Origin: Gemmatimonadota bacterium | GTDB lineage: Bacteria; Gemmatimonadota; Gemmatimonadetes; Gemmatimonadales; GWC2-71-9 | Assembly: GCA_003223415.1 (NCBI GenBank) | Contig: QHUY01000057.1 | Coordinates: forward strand, 1 to 32,885 | Length of the DNA: 32,885 nt | Direction of reading: 5' to 3' | Part shown: positions 10,476 through 27,552 of the stretch, piece by piece | Position numbering within the stretch: position 1 is the first letter of the stretch | How the letters are laid out: each line of letters starts with the position of its first letter | Notes under the pieces: model-generated | What the model saw: only the letters and a program-made list of their open reading frames with translations | Databases searched by the model: none | Told to the model about the DNA's origin: nothing | Program-made: the position numbers and the translations under genes

Positions 10476-11427
<952 letters not shown>

Positions 11428-11431
<4 letters not shown>

Positions 11432-12504
11432 CGACCTGTCCCTCGTCCCCCGTCCCCCTTCCCCCGGACGTTTGCGTCCCAGTACCGCATCCACTCGGCC
11501 CCACGCACCGCGAGCAGGTCCCAGTCCACGTCCGCGACCTTCATGCGCCGCCGGACGTCGCGCACCCAGCCCGGCAGCGAGTCCACGGGCAAGTCCGCGC
11601 GCGCGGGCAGGCGGTACACCTGGCGCGCGGCGAGCAGTTGCGCCTCCACGCTTCCCACCCATTCGACGAAGGCTCGCGCCGCGTCGCGATGCCGCGCGTT
11701 GCGCACCACCGCGATGGCATCCTCGATCACCGGGGTCCCGCTCTTCGGGAACACGTAACCGAGCTGCAGGCCGTCACGAATATTGATCTGGATGTCCGGC
11801 AGGTCCCAGATCGTCACCAAGCCCTCCCGGCGGACGATCTTCTGATCGAGCAGGGAGCCGTTGAGCACGTACTCCTTCGTCTGCGCGTCGAGCCGGCGCA
11901 GCCACTGGAAGCCGGCCGCGGTGTCGCCCGTCTGTTTCACGCCGCGCTCGATGAGCATCCCCCAGACGGCGCGCATCGTGCCGCTCGCGAGCGGATCGCG
12001 GATCAACACCTGCCCCTTCCATTTGGGGAGCAGGAGGTCGTCCCAGTCCTGCGGCGCTTCCGCGGGCCGCATCGCCTGCGCGGCGTAGACGATGACCGCC
12101 GGGGTCTCGAAGACAGCGAAGTACAGGTCGGCGGGCCCGCGACCGTGCGGGTCGATGGCCCCCGCCCAGCTGGGGCGAAATGGCTCGAGCAGCGAATCGG
12201 CGGCACCGCGCGCGAAGATCGTCGCCGGCCCGCCGAACCACACGTCCGCCTGGGGATTGGCGCGCTCGGAGCGCAGGCGGTCGTACACCTCCTGCGAGCC
12301 CATGTCCAGCCAGCGCACGTCGACGTCCGGATGGAGCTGCTCGAAGCGCCGCTCGAACAGCGTGAGGAGATCGCGGCCGTGGGGACTATAGATCACCAGA
12401 GGAGTGCGGGAATCCCGCGTGCAGGCGAATAACACCAGGGAGCACAGAGCAGGGAGCAGTACCTTCCGGTGCCCGCGGCCGCTGCGGCTCGCGTCGGAGA
12501 GCAC
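11428..12504 (-). CDS. ABC importer substrate-binding lipoprotein
   Basis: A 358-residue extracytoplasmic solute-binding protein of the ferric-iron/phosphonate (FbpA-like) group. With GTG 12504 as start, a basic n-region ending HRK leads to a hydrophobic core and a lipobox-like LFAC, after which the mature protein begins with a typical first strand (PLVIYSPHG). Characteristic stretches include ADVWFGGP, QDWDDLLLPKWKG and LVTIWDLPDI. ATG 12537 in the same frame is an alternative start that would overlap the preceding gene by 11 nt. The hydrophobic core is encoded by a heptamer repeat, and the C-terminal tail by another. The ligand is not certain: canonical Tyr pairs for iron are not clear to me, so phosphonate or another anion is possible. 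Confidence 0.85.
11438..11465. repeat. 4 x 7-bp tandem repeat at gene end
   Basis: GTCCCTC, GTCCCCC, GTCCCCC and TTCCCCC form a heptamer tract over the last codons of the substrate-binding protein gene. On the minus strand it encodes a Gly/Lys/Asp/Arg-rich tail (GKGDGGRGTGR) unlike the rest of the protein. Confidence 0.85.
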
Positions 12505-12535
12505 TGCTCCGTGCTCCCTGCTCCGGCTAGGGAGC
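12437..12535. repeat. inverted heptamer tracts (AGGGAGC family)
   Basis: Heptamers AGGGAGC, ACAGAGC, AGGGAGC at 12437-12457 (followed by AGT) are answered by the inverted series ACTGCTC, CGTGCTC, CCTGCTC at 12503-12523. The arms match at 19 of 22 positions. A further AGGGAGC stands at 12529-12535 over the PIG-L stop. The structure straddles the start and signal-peptide codons of the binding-protein gene and may act as a hairpin in the operon mRNA. Confidence 0.8.
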
Positions 12536-15010
12536 ATTGGCCTTTCTGAGCGCCAGGAGATTGGCAAAGAGCCGATACGCTCCCGGGACCCCGGCGGGCA
12601 GCTCCCGGAAGAACGCGAGCGCGGTGTACACGTATGCGCCGCGCCCCAGCGGTGCGACCAGCAGGCCGCCCTCGAGCGGCGGCCCGCCCGGATCGTGCAT
12701 CTCGAGCAGCGGCTTGTAGGCGGGGTCCCACTCGTGGGCGAAGTACAGGCCGCGCTCCTGCACCCAGCCCTGCCAATCCTCGGCCGTGATGCGGTTGGGC
12801 GAGCGGAACACCGCGCCCGTAGAATCGAGCAGCGTCACCGGCGCCGTCTCGTCGGTCACGCGATCGTGCGGCTGGGCGATCGTCAGCCGGTAGGGCGCAA
12901 AGCCGCCCTGGATGAAGGGGTACTGCTGGTACTGCACGATCACCAGCCCACCGCCGCGAGCGTACTCGAGCAGCCGACCGTTGTTGGCCACGAGGGCCGG
13001 ATCGGTCTCGTAGGCGCGGCTGCCGATGACGATGGCGTCGTAGCGCGCCAGATCGCCGCGGGCGAGCGTGTCGGCATCGAGCAGCTCGATCGGCACCCCC
13101 ACCGCCGCGAGCGCCTCCGGCACGCGGTCCGACGCGCCGCGCACGTAGCCCACGCGGCCCAGCGAGGGAAGCGCGATCCGCGCCAGACGGATTTCCGCCG
13201 TCGAGGGCTGGACCACCGGGCGGGGGCGGATATGCGGGTAGTCGATGATCGCGAGAGTGCCCTCGCTCCGGCGACCGTCCTGCCCGAGCACTGCCGCTCG
13301 CAGCTCGACGCTGCCCGGTTGCGCGCCCGCCGGCGGTGTCGCGGTGACGGTGACGCTCTGCGTCTCGTCTTCACGCGTGAACGCTAGACTCTCCGGCGCC
13401 GCCGGCTGCCACCCCCGTGGCAGAGTCAAGACGACCTGTCCCGCGGCCGGCCCGCGCGTCCGGTTGGTCACGGTGATCGTGAAGCGCCGCGCGCCGCCGG
13501 CTTTCCCGTTGATCGGCCATACCACGAGCTCGGGCGTGATCGCGACGTCGAACGGCCGGGTGACGAAAACAGGCCGCCGGATCTCGCCGATCGCCTGGTC
13601 CCGGTAGCGGTACACGATTTCGCGCTCGAGCGTGAGGGTTACGCCGGCGAAGACGACACGCGCGCGGAGGGCGAGCGGCGGCGGCGCGAACGGCTCGCCG
13701 CGCACGTCTGGGGGCACCCCGGACCAGTCGTACAGCGCGCCGGTGAGCGGCCGCCGCAGGAAGTACTCCGCCGAGCGTTCGGCGTCCTCGGCCACGGACA
13801 CCGTGAAGCGGCGCGTGAACACCGTTCCCGGCGCGGCAGCGCCGGTGGCGTCGGCCGGCGGCGTCACGATCCAACCCGGTGGGGCCGTTACCTGGATATC
13901 CTCCACGCGCGCTGCGGAATCACCGGCGTTCCAGATCACCGCGTCCACCTGCAGTCGCTGCCCCGGAATCACGATGCCGTCGTCGCCGACGCCGTCCACG
14001 GCGATCCCCGCGGCCTCCGCGATCGCACGCTCGAGCAGCGCGCGCTGCCGGCGTTCCCCGGAGCCGAGGTCCCGCGCGGCGCGCGTCAGATACGGCAGGA
14101 TGGCCTGCGGAGCCCACGCGTTGAGCCGCACCCGAGCCGAGTCGATCAGCGCGACGAAGCGCGTCTGGCCGCGCAGCACGGTGTCGACGCCGGCGAAGAG
14201 CCCGGGGTCGTCGCTGCCCGAGTGGGGAGGAGCCCGCGAGGCGAGCAGCGCCAGCCGCACGAAGCTCGGCCCCGGACGCTGCAGCTGCCCCTGATCCTGC
14301 GAGCGATGGCGGCTGCGGCTGGCCGCGGCGATCTGCGCGTACGACTGACCGGCCAGGGGGTCGAGCATGCCGGCCGGCATCGTGAGCGTGGTGCCGGTGG
14401 TGTCGAACCCTGCGCTGCGGTACAGCTTCACCGGGCCCCAAGCGGAGTCCTTCAGGATCTCGAACGCCTGCCGTGCCAGCTGGCCGGACACCTGGTGCTG
14501 GCCGTGGCCGTCCCGGGGCGTGCCGCTGAAGATCGAGATGATGATCTGGGGTCGAAATTTCCGGATGACGGCGATGACGTCCTCGAGCAGCGAGTCCCGC
14601 GGCCAGAAGCGGAACGTTTCGTCGGCCGACTTGGAGTACCCGAAATCGTAGGCGCGGGTGAAGAACTGGCCGGCGCCGTCCAGCTGGCGGGCCGCCAGCA
14701 GCTCCTCGCTGCGGATTATTCCCAGCTCCACCCCGAGCTCGGGGCCGATCAGGTTCTGGCCGCCCTCGCCCCGGCTCAGGGAGAGATAGGCCGCCTGGAC
14801 GCCGTAGCCCCGCGAGAGAAGCGTGAGCAGCTGGTTGTTCTCGTCATCGGGGTGCGCGCCGATCATGAGGACGCGCTTGTCGGCGCCGAGCTGCTGCAAG
14901 TCGCTCATCAACGCCGCGACGCCGCCGGTGCCGACGGGGGCGAGCGTCTGCCCCCGTGCGGTCCCGGCGGCGCAGGCGAGGCCTAGAAGACACGCACCGA
15001 GATGTCGCAA
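12527..15010 (-). CDS. secreted PIG-L/LmbE-family deacetylase, multidomain
   Basis: About 827 residues. An N-terminal signal peptide (MRHLGACLLGLACAAG) is followed by a PIG-L/LmbE N-acetyl-sugar deacetylase domain: zinc motif AHPDDE at 52-57, a downstream His in GHGQH, and the family stretch SLSRGEGGQN. The middle holds two NEW3-like beta domains (VTAPPGWIV and LTLPRGWQP). The C-terminal third resembles a glutamine-amidotransferase/ThuA-like fold (AIVIGSRAYETDP, YARGGGLVIVQYQQ). It probably trims acetyl groups from amino sugars outside the cytoplasm. No ATG fits: TTG 15010 or TTG 15019 are the best starts, overlapping the amidohydrolase end by about 30 nt. Neither has a clear ribosome-binding site, so coupled translation is likely. 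Confidence 0.85.
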   Translation of the reverse strand: MRHLGACLLGLACAAGTARGQTLAPVGTGGVAALMSDLQQLGADKRVLMIGAHPDDENNQLLTLLSRGYGVQAAYLSLSRGEGGQNLIGPELGVELGIIRSEELLAARQLDGAGQFFTRAYDFGYSKSADETFRFWPRDSLLEDVIAVIRKFRPQIIISIFSGTPRDGHGQHQVSGQLARQAFEILKDSAWGPVKLYRSAGFDTTGTTLTMPAGMLDPLAGQSYAQIAAASRSRHRSQDQGQLQRPGPSFVRLALLASRAPPHSGSDDPGLFAGVDTVLRGQTRFVALIDSARVRLNAWAPQAILPYLTRAARDLGSGERRQRALLERAIAEAAGIAVDGVGDDGIVIPGQRLQVDAVIWNAGDSAARVEDIQVTAPPGWIVTPPADATGAAAPGTVFTRRFTVSVAEDAERSAEYFLRRPLTGALYDWSGVPPDVRGEPFAPPPLALRARVVFAGVTLTLEREIVYRYRDQAIGEIRRPVFVTRPFDVAITPELVVWPINGKAGGARRFTITVTNRTRGPAAGQVVLTLPRGWQPAAPESLAFTREDETQSVTVTATPPAGAQPGSVELRAAVLGQDGRRSEGTLAIIDYPHIRPRPVVQPSTAEIRLARIALPSLGRVGYVRGASDRVPEALAAVGVPIELLDADTLARGDLARYDAIVIGSRAYETDPALVANNGRLLEYARGGGLVIVQYQQYPFIQGGFAPYRLTIAQPHDRVTDETAPVTLLDSTGAVFRSPNRITAEDWQGWVQERGLYFAHEWDPAYKPLLEMHDPGGPPLEGGLLVAPLGRGAYVYTALAFFRELPAGVPGAYRLFANLLALRKANAP

Positions 15011-16317
15011 GATGGACAAAGGTAGACGATTCCGCCCTTCATAACGAACTTGACGCGCTGGAGTTCCGTGATGTCCCGCAGCGGGTCGCCGGCGACGGCC
15101 ACGATATCCGCGAGCAGGCCGGGCGCGATGGCCCCCAGGTTGTCCTGCTGGCCGAGCAGGTCCGCGGCGACCGACGTGCCGGACTTGATCGCCTGCATCG
15201 GGGTCATGCCGTACTGGACGTAGTACTCGAATTCTTTGGCCTGGTTGATCTCCGTCCAAGGGAAGCCGCCCACGTCGGTGCCGGCCACGATCTTGACGCC
15301 CTTGCGGAGGGCGTGCTGGAAGGCGCGCCGCTGGGCGGCGACCATGGGTCCCCACACGCCGCCGCGCGGGCCCGCCACGTACTGGGAGACGGTGACCGTT
15401 GGCACCCAGAAGACCCCCCGCGCGACGAGCACGTCGAGCAGCGAGTCCGTGAGGCCGTCGCCGTGCTCGATGGAGTTCACGCCGGCCCGCAGCGCGGCGG
15501 CGATCCCATCGGACCCGATGGCGTGGGACGCGACACGACGGCCGAGGCGATGCGTCTCCTCCACGATGGCGCGGGCTTCGTCGTCGGTGAAATTGACCCA
15601 GCTGTGCAGCACGCTGTCGGGGCCGAAGTAGTAGCGGCGGTCGGAGTAGTATTTGATCCAGTCGGCGCCGTGGGACACCTGTTCCCGCACCGCGAGCCGA
15701 GCTCCGTCCACCCCGTCCACCGGCTGCACGCCGTGGGGCAGCTCGAGCTCCCAGTTTGTGCTCACGATGGGATACATCCCGGTCGGCGCCATCGCGCGCG
15801 TCGAGACGAACATCCGCGAGCCCGGGACCTCGCCGCGATTGATGGCGAGCTTGACGTCCACGTCCGCGTACATCGCGCCCTCGGTCTCGACATCGCGCAT
15901 CGTCGTGAAGCCGTGCTCGAGGGCGAGTCGGGCGTTTCGGGCGGCGAGAATCGCCCGGTAGGGAATGGATTCGTAGAGCAGCTGCCGGTCGTAGGACTCG
16001 GAGGTCGGGTCGCCCTGGAGCAGGATGTGCGTGTGGGCGTCGATGAGACCGGGCAGCACGGTCATCTGCGACAGGTCGATGACCCGCGGCGTCCTGGCCT
16101 GCCCCTGCACCTGTGCCAGCGGGCCGACGGCCTTGATCCGCTCGCCCTCGATCAGGATGCCCATGTTGGGCAGGGCGGCGTCGCCGCGGCCGTCGATCAG
16201 GCGGCCGGCCTTGATCAGGATCTGCTGGAGCGGCGGAGCGGGGGCGGGCGCCCCTTGGGCGGCGAGGGCCGCGGGCAGCGCGAGGAGCGCGAGCAGGGCG
16301 GCGAGCAGGCGGCGCAT
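14983..16317 (-). CDS. secreted metal-dependent amidohydrolase
   Basis: A 444-residue amidohydrolase-superfamily (imidazolonepropionase/prolidase-like) enzyme with a signal peptide (MRRLLAALLALLALPAALAA). The metal site is readable: HxH in DAHTHILL, Lys in WIKYYSD as the likely carboxylated bridge, His in ASHAIGSDG, His in IEHGD and Asp in GTDVGGF. ATG 16317 follows a GGAGAG; further upstream the frame reads as non-protein sequence. It is the first gene of the ten-gene minus-strand operon and is divergent from the acyl-CoA dehydrogenase gene. The last 15 residues, including CPSC, are encoded in the overlap with the next gene and are probably not functional. The substrate is unknown; peptides with C-terminal or imino acids are typical of the group. 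Confidence 0.88.
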   Translation of the reverse strand: MRRLLAALLALLALPAALAAQGAPAPAPPLQQILIKAGRLIDGRGDAALPNMGILIEGERIKAVGPLAQVQGQARTPRVIDLSQMTVLPGLIDAHTHILLQGDPTSESYDRQLLYESIPYRAILAARNARLALEHGFTTMRDVETEGAMYADVDVKLAINRGEVPGSRMFVSTRAMAPTGMYPIVSTNWELELPHGVQPVDGVDGARLAVREQVSHGADWIKYYSDRRYYFGPDSVLHSWVNFTDDEARAIVEETHRLGRRVASHAIGSDGIAAALRAGVNSIEHGDGLTDSLLDVLVARGVFWVPTVTVSQYVAGPRGGVWGPMVAAQRRAFQHALRKGVKIVAGTDVGGFPWTEINQAKEFEYYVQYGMTPMQAIKSGTSVAADLLGQQDNLGAIAPGLLADIVAVAGDPLRDITELQRVKFVMKGGIVYLCPSCDISVRVF

Positions 16318-16381
16318 CGGTCTCTCCGGGTGAAGGCGAGGCCAATCTAGCCCCTCCCCTGCTGCCCCGGGAGGCTCTGGG

Positions 16382-18947: not shown

Positions 18948-18953
18948 AGTTAA
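18948..18953 (-). promoter_or_regulatory. putative -10 box, leaderless start
   Basis: On the minus strand TTAACT ends 7 nt before the ATG at 18940, with no Shine-Dalgarno between. This is the same geometry as at 411-416 and 16382-16387. Confidence 0.3.
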
Positions 18954-19028
18954 GCCATCAGCGATCAGCCGTCAGCCGTGAGGAAGCCTGGCGCTGGTCT
19001 GATGGCCGATGGCTGATGGCTGACGGCT
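18954..19028. repeat. inverted heptamer arrays in divergent promoter region
   Basis: Four heptamers in the AGCCATC/AGCCGTC family occupy 18954-18981. After 19 nt, four inverted heptamers GATGGCC, GATGGCT, GATGGCT and GACGGCT occupy 19001-19028. Three of the four heptad pairs differ by one base, so the tract can form a long imperfect hairpin. It fills most of the gap between the divergent phosphoribosyltransferase-like and citrate synthase genes, where both promoters must lie. Confidence 0.88.
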
Positions 19029-25280: not shown

Positions 25281-25383
25281 GGCGTAAATACTGAAGGCGT
25301 CGAGGAAAAGCGTCAAGGAAAGGGCGTCGAGGAACGGCGTCAAGGAGAGACGTCAAGGAAAGACGTCAAGGGGAGACGTCACT
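25281..25383. repeat. 13-bp array C, seven direct units
   Basis: CGT phases stand at 25298, 25311, 25325, 25338, 25351, 25364 and 25377, that is, six steps of 13, 14, 13, 13, 13 and 13. Consensus is GRCGTCRAGGARA. A degenerate unit starts at 25281. Unlike the other arrays there is no inverted half. It lies in the divergent gap between the TolB/amidohydrolase and rpsU genes and ends 3 nt before a perfect TTGACA. Confidence 0.95.
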
Positions 25384-25535: not shown

Positions 25536-25730
25536 ATGGAAATCACGCTGGGCGAGAACGACCGACTGGACTGGGTCCTGAAGAAGTTCCGCCGGCAGAT
25601 CACCCGGGCCGGTCTGTTCCAGGACTTGAAGCGCAAGCGCTTCTACGAGAGCAGGGCCGCTCAGCGACGGCGGAAGGACAAGTCCGCAGCCCGCCGCAAG
25701 GCGAAAGCCGCGCGCCGTCGCGAACATTAA
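25536..25730 (+). CDS. rpsU: 30S ribosomal protein bS21
   Basis: A 64-residue basic protein of the small ribosomal subunit, needed for efficient initiation. MEITLGENDRLDWVLKKFRR followed by an Arg/Lys/Ala-rich tail (KDKSAARRKAKAARRREH) is the typical bS21 pattern. ATG 25536 has GGGAG about 8 nt upstream; the longer in-frame ATG at 25509 lacks one and adds residues not found in the family. An 18-nt gap to the cold-shock gene indicates a shared transcript. The leader hairpin with a T-tract suggests control by attenuation. Confidence 0.95.
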   Translation: MEITLGENDRLDWVLKKFRRQITRAGLFQDLKRKRFYESRAAQRRRKDKSAARRKAKAARRREH

Positions 25731-25748
25731 GTCAGGAGTGTCACCAGT

Positions 25749-25958
25749 ATGGCACGCATCACCGGTACCGTGAAGTGGTTCAACGACGCGAAGGGCTTCG
25801 GCTTCATCACGCCCGAGAACGGCGACAAGGACTGCTTCGTGCATCACACCGCGATCCAGCAGGATGGCTTCAAGACCCTGGCCGAAGGCCAGCGTGTCGA
25901 GTTCGAAGTGGTTCAGGGGCAAAAGGGCCCCGCCGCTCAGAACGTCGTGAAGCTGTAA
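25749..25958 (+). CDS. cold-shock protein (CspA family)
   Basis: A 69-residue single cold-shock domain that binds single-stranded RNA/DNA and keeps mRNA unfolded. The RNA-binding motifs are present: KGFGFI (RNP1) at residues 15-20 and CFVHHT (RNP2-like, usually VFVHHS) near 29-34. Ser-to-Thr and Val-to-Cys changes in RNP2 are mild. The gene has AGGAG upstream of the ATG, follows rpsU by 18 nt and ends before a strong intrinsic hairpin. Cold-shock regulation is plausible given the company of a ribosomal protein but is not shown. Confidence 0.96.
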
Positions 25959-25980
25959 CCGACCGCGGTACCGCGAAACG

Positions 25981-26010
25981 AACGGCGCCGCCCCTACGGG
26001 CGGCGCCGTT
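25981..26010. terminator. strong hairpin after rpsU-csp operon
   Basis: A perfect 13-bp GC-rich stem (25981-25993 with 25998-26010) encloses a 4-nt loop, CTAC. It is followed by TTTGC, so the T-tract is short. It separates the plus-strand csp gene from the convergent HTH gene ending at 26035 and can work in both directions. Confidence 0.85.
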
Positions 26011-26034
26011 TGCATGTCCGGAGATCGGGGGTGC

Positions 26035-26838: not shown

Positions 26839-27552
26839 TCAAATGGTAGGGTGTGTCGATTCGTAGCGCGCCTTCCGCAGCAGGGCGGCCGTGCCCACGA
26901 GCGTGATCACGGCGAAACTGAACCACTGGATAGCGTAGGAGAGATGCGGCCCGTCACCCAAGACAGGGGCAGGCCAGCGATAGAGCCGTCGGACGGTCGG
27001 ACGGTCGGACGGTCGGATGGAAGGCGTTTCCTGGATGATGAAGGCGTATAAGGGGTACGAAACCGAGTCTTTGAGCCGGGTGACGTCCACGTCCCCGCGT
27101 GCCCGGGGGACCGCGAAGGCGAGCCCTTCGACGGTCGCAGTGTCCCCTTCCCGTACCGCCGCCTGGTCGATGTGCCTGCCGTCGGGCGATGGCACCCAGC
27201 CACGGTCCACGTAGACCGCCCCGCCCCCGGCGAGCCGCAATGGGGTCAGCACCGCCACGCCCGGGGTCCCCTCGTAGGTGCGCCCCGCCCACAGCCGCTC
27301 GGCGGAATAGTCGTACGTGCCGCGTGCTGTGACGCGGCGGTCTTGGACGGAATCGGGTGCGAGTTCCCCCCCCCCTGCCCCTGCCGTAGCGCCGAGCACA
27401 ATCGGCGGGAGTGCGCGCCGCGCCGCGATGCTGGCGTTCCGAGCGCGTCGCTGCTGCAGGCGGTGCACCTGCCAGACGCCGAGGCGCACGAACAGCGCCG
27501 CACAGGCCAGCGCCACCCCGACCCCGGCCCAATCCCACGGTCGCAGCTTCAC
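26839..27552 (-). CDS. SURF1-family cytochrome oxidase assembly protein
   Basis: A 237-residue membrane protein of the SURF1/Shy1 family that helps insert haem a into aa3-type cytochrome c oxidase, which points to aerobic respiration. Two membrane segments flank a large external domain: residues about 9-27 (GVGVALACAALFVRLG, with the family GxWQ motif directly after) and about 208-226 (HLSYAIQWFSFAVITLVG). VYVDRGWVP is typical of the domain. A 32-bp octamer repeat encodes the RPSDRPTVRR loop around residue 180, just before the conserved GPHLSYAIQW. The start is GTG 27552 in a GTGA overlap with the GIY-YIG gene. Confidence 0.92.
   Translation of the reverse strand: MKLRPWDWAGVGVALACAALFVRLGVWQVHRLQQRRARNASIAARRALPPIVLGATAGAGGGELAPDSVQDRRVTARGTYDYSAERLWAGRTYEGTPGVAVLTPLRLAGGGAVYVDRGWVPSPDGRHIDQAAVREGDTATVEGLAFAVPRARGDVDVTRLKDSVSYPLYAFIIQETPSIRPSDRPTVRRLYRWPAPVLGDGPHLSYAIQWFSFAVITLVGTAALLRKARYESTHPTI
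26988..27019. repeat. 4 x 8-bp tandem repeat inside SURF1 gene
   Basis: GTCGGACG occurs three times in a row, then GTCGGATG. It is read in frame as an Arg/Pro/Ser/Asp/Thr/Val loop in the SURF1 protein. The same octamer appears at 18253-18284. Confidence 0.95.

Follow-up and report, generated by a model that had tools for sequence, protein, structure and literature searches.

The lipoprotein gene and its heptamer repeat

The window (the whole stretch of 32,885 nucleotides of a Gemmatimonadota genome that was analysed; this genome is denoted G000, its contigs C and a number, and the compared loci L and a number) carries on its minus strand, in this order, genes for a PIG-L family protein, the substrate-binding lipoprotein of an ABC transporter, an ATP-binding protein and a permease. 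Searched against NCBIfam, the binding protein comes nearest to models of 2-aminoethylphosphonate transport, namely binding proteins whose cut-offs it misses by a wide margin, and all three transporter proteins fall under the cut-off of every model listed for them. The Pfam PIG-L match (1.9e-15) was obtained on an open reading frame, 12527-16345, longer than the gene listed here. The features of the locus are:

11428-12537, minus strand: ABC-transporter substrate-binding lipoprotein gene, 369 residues from its ATG (Pfam SBP_bac_8, 2.7e-15)
12527-14908, minus strand: upstream PIG-L family gene, stop codon TAG at 12529-12527, start from a home-made gene finder
12535-12537, minus strand: most likely start codon of the lipoprotein gene, ATG, overlapping the PIG-L end; judged from orthologue starts relative to the PIG-L stop and from a frame test
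12502-12504, minus strand: alternative start codon, GTG, in the same frame, picked by the home-made gene finder
12439-12524, minus strand: whole inverted repeat, with 41-nt arms (12439-12479 and 12484-12524) that are 73% complementary
12503-12525, minus strand: purine-rich heptamer arm, 5' in the mRNA, reading RSREHGA
12460-12502, minus strand: loop, reading LSDASRSGRGHRKV
12436-12459, minus strand: pyrimidine-rich heptamer arm, reading LLPALCSL, the core of the predicted signal peptide

On the plus strand, positions 12437-12457 read AGGGAGC ACAGAGC AGGGAGC, three heptamers of which the middle one has two mismatches, so that the tract is not clean. Translation of the minus strand from 12459 to 12433 yields the leader core LLPALCSLV, with a V before it and LFAC directly after, and an earlier note on this DNA, which had recognized the tract as the core of a signal peptide in front of LFAC, is borne out by both the sequence and this reading. 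The leader has the cysteine behind a hydrophobic core that marks bacterial lipoproteins, and in all 81 loci compared below a cysteine is among the nine residues that precede the conserved TPLV-type beginning of the mature protein; the phenylalanine at -2 in LFAC is not the usual lipobox residue.

A repeat search paired 17 nt of the two arms at 94%, besides the longer arms listed above, and the minus-strand segment 12400-12560 has a predicted folding energy of -82.1 kcal/mol (z -3.79), with none of 200 shuffles as low. An Rfam search of the window matched nothing at the hairpin and, with three units per arm and some of these lacking GGG (ACAGAGC, ACGGAGC), the four intact G-tracts of a quadruplex were not found. 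When up to two mismatches were allowed, AGGGAGCAGGGAGC matched the window five times, where 0.51 matches would be expected, and all but one of these matches are the heptamer site itself. The border between arm and loop, GAGCAGTGCTCTCCGACG (12509-12492), has two perfect matches genome-wide, its own site and a hairpin copy at C4:4579-4596 of G000.

Other heptamers were noted nearby. A GTCCCCC-type tract at 11438-11465 encodes the last residues of the binding protein, RGKGDGGRGTGR, so heptamers occur at both ends of this gene, and a CTCCCGC tract at 11098-11126 within the gene for the ATP-binding protein is read inside GILGGGSREAGAVQ.

The junction in related species

The comparison comprised 81 loci, the window and 80 orthologues (the best 80 of 279 found), the latter mostly from uncultured MAGs titled Gemmatimonadetes, Gemmatimonadota or Gemmatimonadales, followed by Acidobacteria-type genomes. 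At an inverted-repeat score threshold of 11, which missed L205 though heptamer arms are visible there by eye, 25 of the 81 have an inverted repeat in the segment that leads from the PIG-L stop to the mature protein; this threshold, the tract score and the start window of -15 to +25 used below were all chosen after inspecting the data. Both ends of the junction were located in 70 loci; of the 11 left out, nine lacked a recognizable PIG-L end, and L224 and L229 lacked a start. The group L176-L189 comprises 14 loci of 81 to 86% identity: a heptamer pair occurs in ten of them and a single tract in L184, and the junctions of L176, L180 and L183 are compact. The unit differs between loci, being AGGGAGC in the window, AGTGGGG in L177, ATTGCGG in L186 and L187, AACGCGG in L179, L181 and L182, and AATGCGG or AGTGCGG in L178, L185, L188 and L189; more distant units are GGTGCGT (L196), a GGGAGA type (L195), GTGAACG (L208) and GCAGAGT (L242 and L246). 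Palindromes of other types were found at the same junction in further loci, L209, L222 and L232 among them; in L232 (and L056), the junction of another species bears the long palindrome TGTCATCCTGAGCGGAGC.

The ATG at 12537-12535 stands eight bases ahead of the PIG-L stop. In many relatives, the ATG of the lipoprotein gene is located at or just past this stop, and the frame then passes through arm, loop and arm to the hydrophobic core, as in the leader of L185, MRNAECGMRSGPCACRTRRSASRIGPSPAIPHSAFRIPHWLVAAPLLVLLSIAC; the corresponding start in the window would give MLPSRSREHGAVLSDASRSGRGHRKVLLPALCSLVLFAC, and the leader at the compact, hairpin-free junction of L176 is MRLLARVTLLVLLTSAC. An in-frame, open start between -15 and +25 relative to the PIG-L stop was found in 22 of the 25 hairpin loci, compared to 4 and 3 in the shifted frames, and the three failures (L223, L232 and L246) count against a translated hairpin. 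The leader up to the cysteine has a median length of 49 residues in the 25 hairpin loci and 25 in the 45 others; that of the window would have 39 from the ATG, which is long for a lipoprotein and likewise counts against, as does the observation that the pyrimidine arm is itself the core only in the window and a few relatives, the core following the arm in most close relatives. The second arm is more hydrophobic than the first in 18 of the 25 hairpin loci, not in all. Taken as a whole, the comparison suggests that the start is the ATG overlapping the PIG-L stop codon, in which case both arms and the loop are translated, most likely as part of the export signal; we infer that this leader directs export.

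The earlier note had taken as the likely start a GTG (12504-12502) surrounded by the inverted tract, which by pairing of the two arms could be hidden. Pairing of the arms is upheld by the 17-nt match and the predicted fold, but the orthologues favour the ATG, which puts the purine arm inside the coding sequence and leaves the GTG at its edge. That the hairpin is intergenic and non-coding, initiation taking place at this GTG or later so that only the pyrimidine arm is coding, appears rather unlikely, although the GTG is in frame, was the choice of the home-made gene finder and would give a leader of ordinary length, 28 residues up to the cysteine, and although heptamer repeats of Xanthomonas are located after stop codons and upstream of open reading frames in the accessible part of that study (PMC4692102). 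Against it, the whole hairpin is open in 24 of the 25 loci compared to 10 and 17 in the shifted frames, and no downstream start common to all is visible among the 26 loci inspected for it. Preservation of the frame bears also on phase variation, which the note had proposed; in this reading, slippage would alter heptamer copy number and toggle the lipoprotein gene. The HMW adhesins exemplify heptamer-driven phase variation. Such variation is described in other bacteria (PMC8262952, in part), and the window does hold 7-nt tandem units within a coding frame. However, it has just three units with two mismatches, not the long near-perfect tract of a phase-variable locus, and the frame is kept in the 22 hairpin loci noted above as well as, from an ATG near the PIG-L stop, in all 12 arm-bearing loci of the window's clade (the window plus eleven of L176-L189 with a tract). 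The length from stop to gene is 1 modulo 3 in ten of these 12, L178 and L189 using a later in-frame ATG, and no one-unit difference that breaks the frame was seen in this between-species comparison, which leaves out the three compact loci (stop-to-gene lengths 68, 58 and 71). Because the units are few and imperfect and the frame is kept across species, a phase switch is not supported, and at the level of species it was rejected as highly improbable; on these alignments, the repeat looks like a tolerated, fast-changing sequence and not an on/off switch.

The two arms appear to change in concert. In seven orthologues, which have three different units among them, arms and loop form a gapless alignment with 93.3% of cells paired and eight pairs changed on both sides, and RNAalifold gives the same helix. 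Covariation was 0.286, a value inflated by related rows; shuffled alignments gave 0.148, none of 500 reaching the observed value, and sliding the arms gave no more than 0.062. The count of further pair types was no higher than in shuffles, 344 of 500 of which equalled or exceeded it. The well-supported sister pairs L177/L187 and L178/L179 carry different units on a tree built from 28 mature proteins. Unit labels, assigned by hand to these 28 chosen loci, require 15 changes on the tree; shuffled labels need 16.5 on average, and 32 of 200 shuffles needed no more than 15. Absence of the hairpin is clustered, with 5 changes against a shuffled mean of 8.4. Template switching has been reported to homogenize the arms of inverted repeats, coding DNA included, and to create compensatory changes (PMC8604942, PMC8794818; both in part). 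As this process alone yields covariation, the covariation seen here is not proof of RNA function, though selection for the hairpin could alternatively account for it; the arms at this junction were probably rewritten together by template switching.

Heptamer tracts elsewhere in the genome

The genome sample covered 31% of the genome, the window included, with contigs taken mostly via pattern matches and not at random. In 809,550 bases of this genome there were 115 tracts of period 7, belonging to 40 unit groups, compared to 2 in one block shuffle; period 8 was also raised (40 tracts), while periods 5, 10 and 11 gave 6, 5 and 4, and periods 6, 9 and 12 gave 16, 18 and 18. A sample of 1,096,694 bases held 196 heptamer tracts at a lower threshold and 146 at a higher one. 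A complementary partner lay within 200 nt of 78 of the 196, compared to 6 of 980 random stretches, and the corresponding values for periods 8, 9, 6 and 12 were 13/52, 1/115, 0/102 and 2/107. The purine arm comes first in 34 of 42 distinct pairs, as it does at the window site. Few period-7 tracts were found in smaller samples, of 100 kb each, from four other genomes: four (G015), two (G026), two (G034) and none (G019).

The gene finder, which is home-made and crude, places 64 of 153 tracts of a smaller sample inside genes (44 in purine sense, 20 in pyrimidine sense), with 12 at the ends of genes and 15 at their starts. Tracts were not enriched in signal peptides, with four of 27 near-start tracts in a predicted core, and this counts against the explanation preferred below; by a loose rule that 301 of 964 genes satisfy, six of the 27 lie in signal-peptide-like genes. 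The window's own tracts are absent from the 27, the coding arm being below threshold and the other arm ending at the start chosen by the gene finder.

Individual copies were followed in relatives. In a second signal-peptide gene of G000, C209:17113-18354, a heptamer pair spans the leader, MRNRSDAGPSRRGVSWLGLALEFRIPHSALRILLLLSLTTAPLLAQ; matches to it occur in 33 of 37 genomes, and among the 20 best loci, of which it is one, the pair is also present in L282 and absent from the other 18. The leader core of a peptidase-like gene on C205 contains an AGGGAGC-type heptamer, MNRNVLLPAPCSLVMVLSL, and matches to this protein in 36 relatives were partial, at most 43% identical among those listed. In a gene that, judging by its sequence, we take to encode LeuRS, a heptamer tract makes up the variable linker in G000 and a tract of another unit does so in G015, with none in the other 14 of the 16 loci in which the linker motif was found (of 24 fetched); the linker has a length of 39 in ten of the 16, G000 and G015 included. 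A copy on C83 was considered as a third signal peptide and dropped, since it sits inside a gene that, read by eye, presumably encodes an AMP-binding enzyme.

Several further repeats were recorded. Within the window, a heptamer inverted pair, AGCCATC / GATGGCT, lies between two divergent predicted genes (18953-18979 and 19001-19028) with its pyrimidine arm first, opposite to most pairs; a perfect octamer repeat of 3.8 copies, GTCGGACG, lies in a predicted gene at 26988-27017, and its unit recurs in the genome sample; a 13-base tandem array occupies 25294-25381; and an Rfam match to the cspA thermoregulator at 25697-26012 scored 78.6 bits, the gathering score being 78. At L062 16801, L128 10704 and L129 17204, predicted genes end in heptamer tracts that supply both the last residues and the stop codon (LTADG* or MTDNG*).

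Interpretation and known systems

Two further explanations were considered. As a functional RNA, the hairpin would attenuate translation so that less binding protein is made in relation to the PIG-L protein encoded upstream, and its very stable predicted fold, its covarying arms and its position right behind the start codon and the stop that overlaps it are all consistent with this. We nonetheless consider it improbable: such a hairpin is lacking from 45 of the 70 loci in which both ends were located, and these include the close relatives L176, L180 and L183; sister species differ in both unit and loop; heptamer tracts are dispersed throughout the genome; and the covariation is explicable by template switching alone, going by the available portions of the reports cited above. 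A miniature element mobilized by a transposase, for instance this genome's own RAYT (Y1_Tnp), likewise seems a poor candidate. Orthologous sites are both occupied and empty with absence clustered on the tree, the sister copy at C4 shares an 18-nt border of arm and loop, and a search with PF01797 found Y1_Tnp above cut-off in 17 of 41 genomes. However, the palindrome bordering the RAYT gene at C265:18870 is GCTGACCCCGGG and not the one found here; G009 and G044, which are 77% and 89% complete, have heptamer arms at this junction (recognized partly by eye) and no RAYT match; and the LeuRS tract keeps the length of the linker, unlike an insertion.

The full-length RAYT of this genome was accordingly rejected as the mobilizer, its palindromes not being heptamers; a second, partial Y1_Tnp match lies on C151. 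The RAYT-type gene between GCTGACCCCGGG palindromes (L079 18700-19290, on C265 of G000) was noted as a separate REP-like system. A fixed element family was also rejected, as GAGCAGTRCTCTCCGAYG with up to three mismatches gave 15 matches compared to 13 for a reversed control, of which only the two perfect ones are convincing.

The explanation that we regard as reasonably probable is that a dispersed heptamer palindrome, of the kind known from Xanthomonas, lies in a tolerant lipoprotein leader, its arms probably having been template-switched and its frame kept by selection. The feature would be one copy of an abundant class of palindromes, each composed of a purine-rich arm, a short loop and a complementary pyrimidine-rich arm. 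As this copy straddles the PIG-L/lipoprotein junction, arms and loop would be translated, the purine arm and loop providing a polar, arginine-containing n-region and the pyrimidine arm a hydrophobic core before the lipobox cysteine. A unit without T on one strand has zero stop codons in all six frames, and pyrimidines at second codon positions specify hydrophobic or small residues; these two consequences of the genetic code make translated arms tolerable and such an arm a suitable raw material for signal peptides. Selection on the leader would retain frame and hydrophobicity and little besides, and both the complementarity of the arms and their joint rewriting would stem from template switching plus slippage during replication, not from selection for a switch. 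A broader proposal, that some process quickly replaces the heptamer in every unit of the two arms, genes included, and that the lineage draws signal-peptide leaders and protein linkers from the arms, since these are mostly stop-free and encode first polar and then hydrophobic residues, is offered as a doubtful extension.

If the hairpin is translated in this way, the locus illustrates a route by which repeat DNA can enter a signal peptide and, with close species carrying different heptamers in both arms and the frame kept, both rewriting and protein tolerance become directly testable. It also carries two warnings: an RNA function of heptamer hairpins is not proved by covariation, and where they occur the annotated gene start may be wrong.

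In searches by title and start of abstract, with most subscription papers outside their reach, no paper was found on heptamer repeats in signal peptides; nor, under the same coverage, was any found on heptanucleotide repeats in Gemmatimonadetes or on short tandemly repeated repetitive heptamers. Heptamer repeats are common in some bacteria, and the accessible parts of the papers cited leave their origin and role open. The nearest likeness is to the G-rich dispersed tandem heptamers of Xanthomonas (GGGAATC) and Nostoc (GGGGA(T/C)T), which form convergent inverted pairs, 70 cases in one genome and 75 in the other, favour the vicinity of stop codons on the sense strand and sites upstream of open reading frames on the antisense strand, and are under-represented in coding sequence, with repeats lacking four G-tracts counted too (PMC4692102, in part). 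G000 shares with them both the dispersed excess of tandem heptamers over other unit lengths and the convergent inverted pairs. It differs from what the available text describes in having many unit families in one genome, often within coding sequence, in a pair apparently translated as a lipoprotein leader, and in close species with other units in both arms.

The TAACTGA heptamers of the Beggiatoaceae also lie beside start codons; their forward repeats provide stops in three frames, and sets inside open reading frames are reversed (PMC4679880, in part). Unlike the repeats described here, they are of a single unit and nearly all direct, with one inverted case in the portion of the paper available. 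Template-switch homogenization has likewise been described as a joint change with complementarity kept, in coding DNA too, though for short repeats in yeast and RNA genes (PMC8604942, PMC8794818; both in part) and not for tandem heptamer arms as here. Rickettsia palindromic elements, of about 150 bp and ten families, lie in frame within protein genes and specify a conserved peptide (PMC10969869, in part). The palindrome at the lipoprotein leader resembles them in its in-frame position within a protein gene, as judged from open frames here and in the second gene on C209; in contrast to the elements as described there, which share a sequence family across copies, its arms are variable heptamers and its border has one other exact copy in the genome, that on C4.
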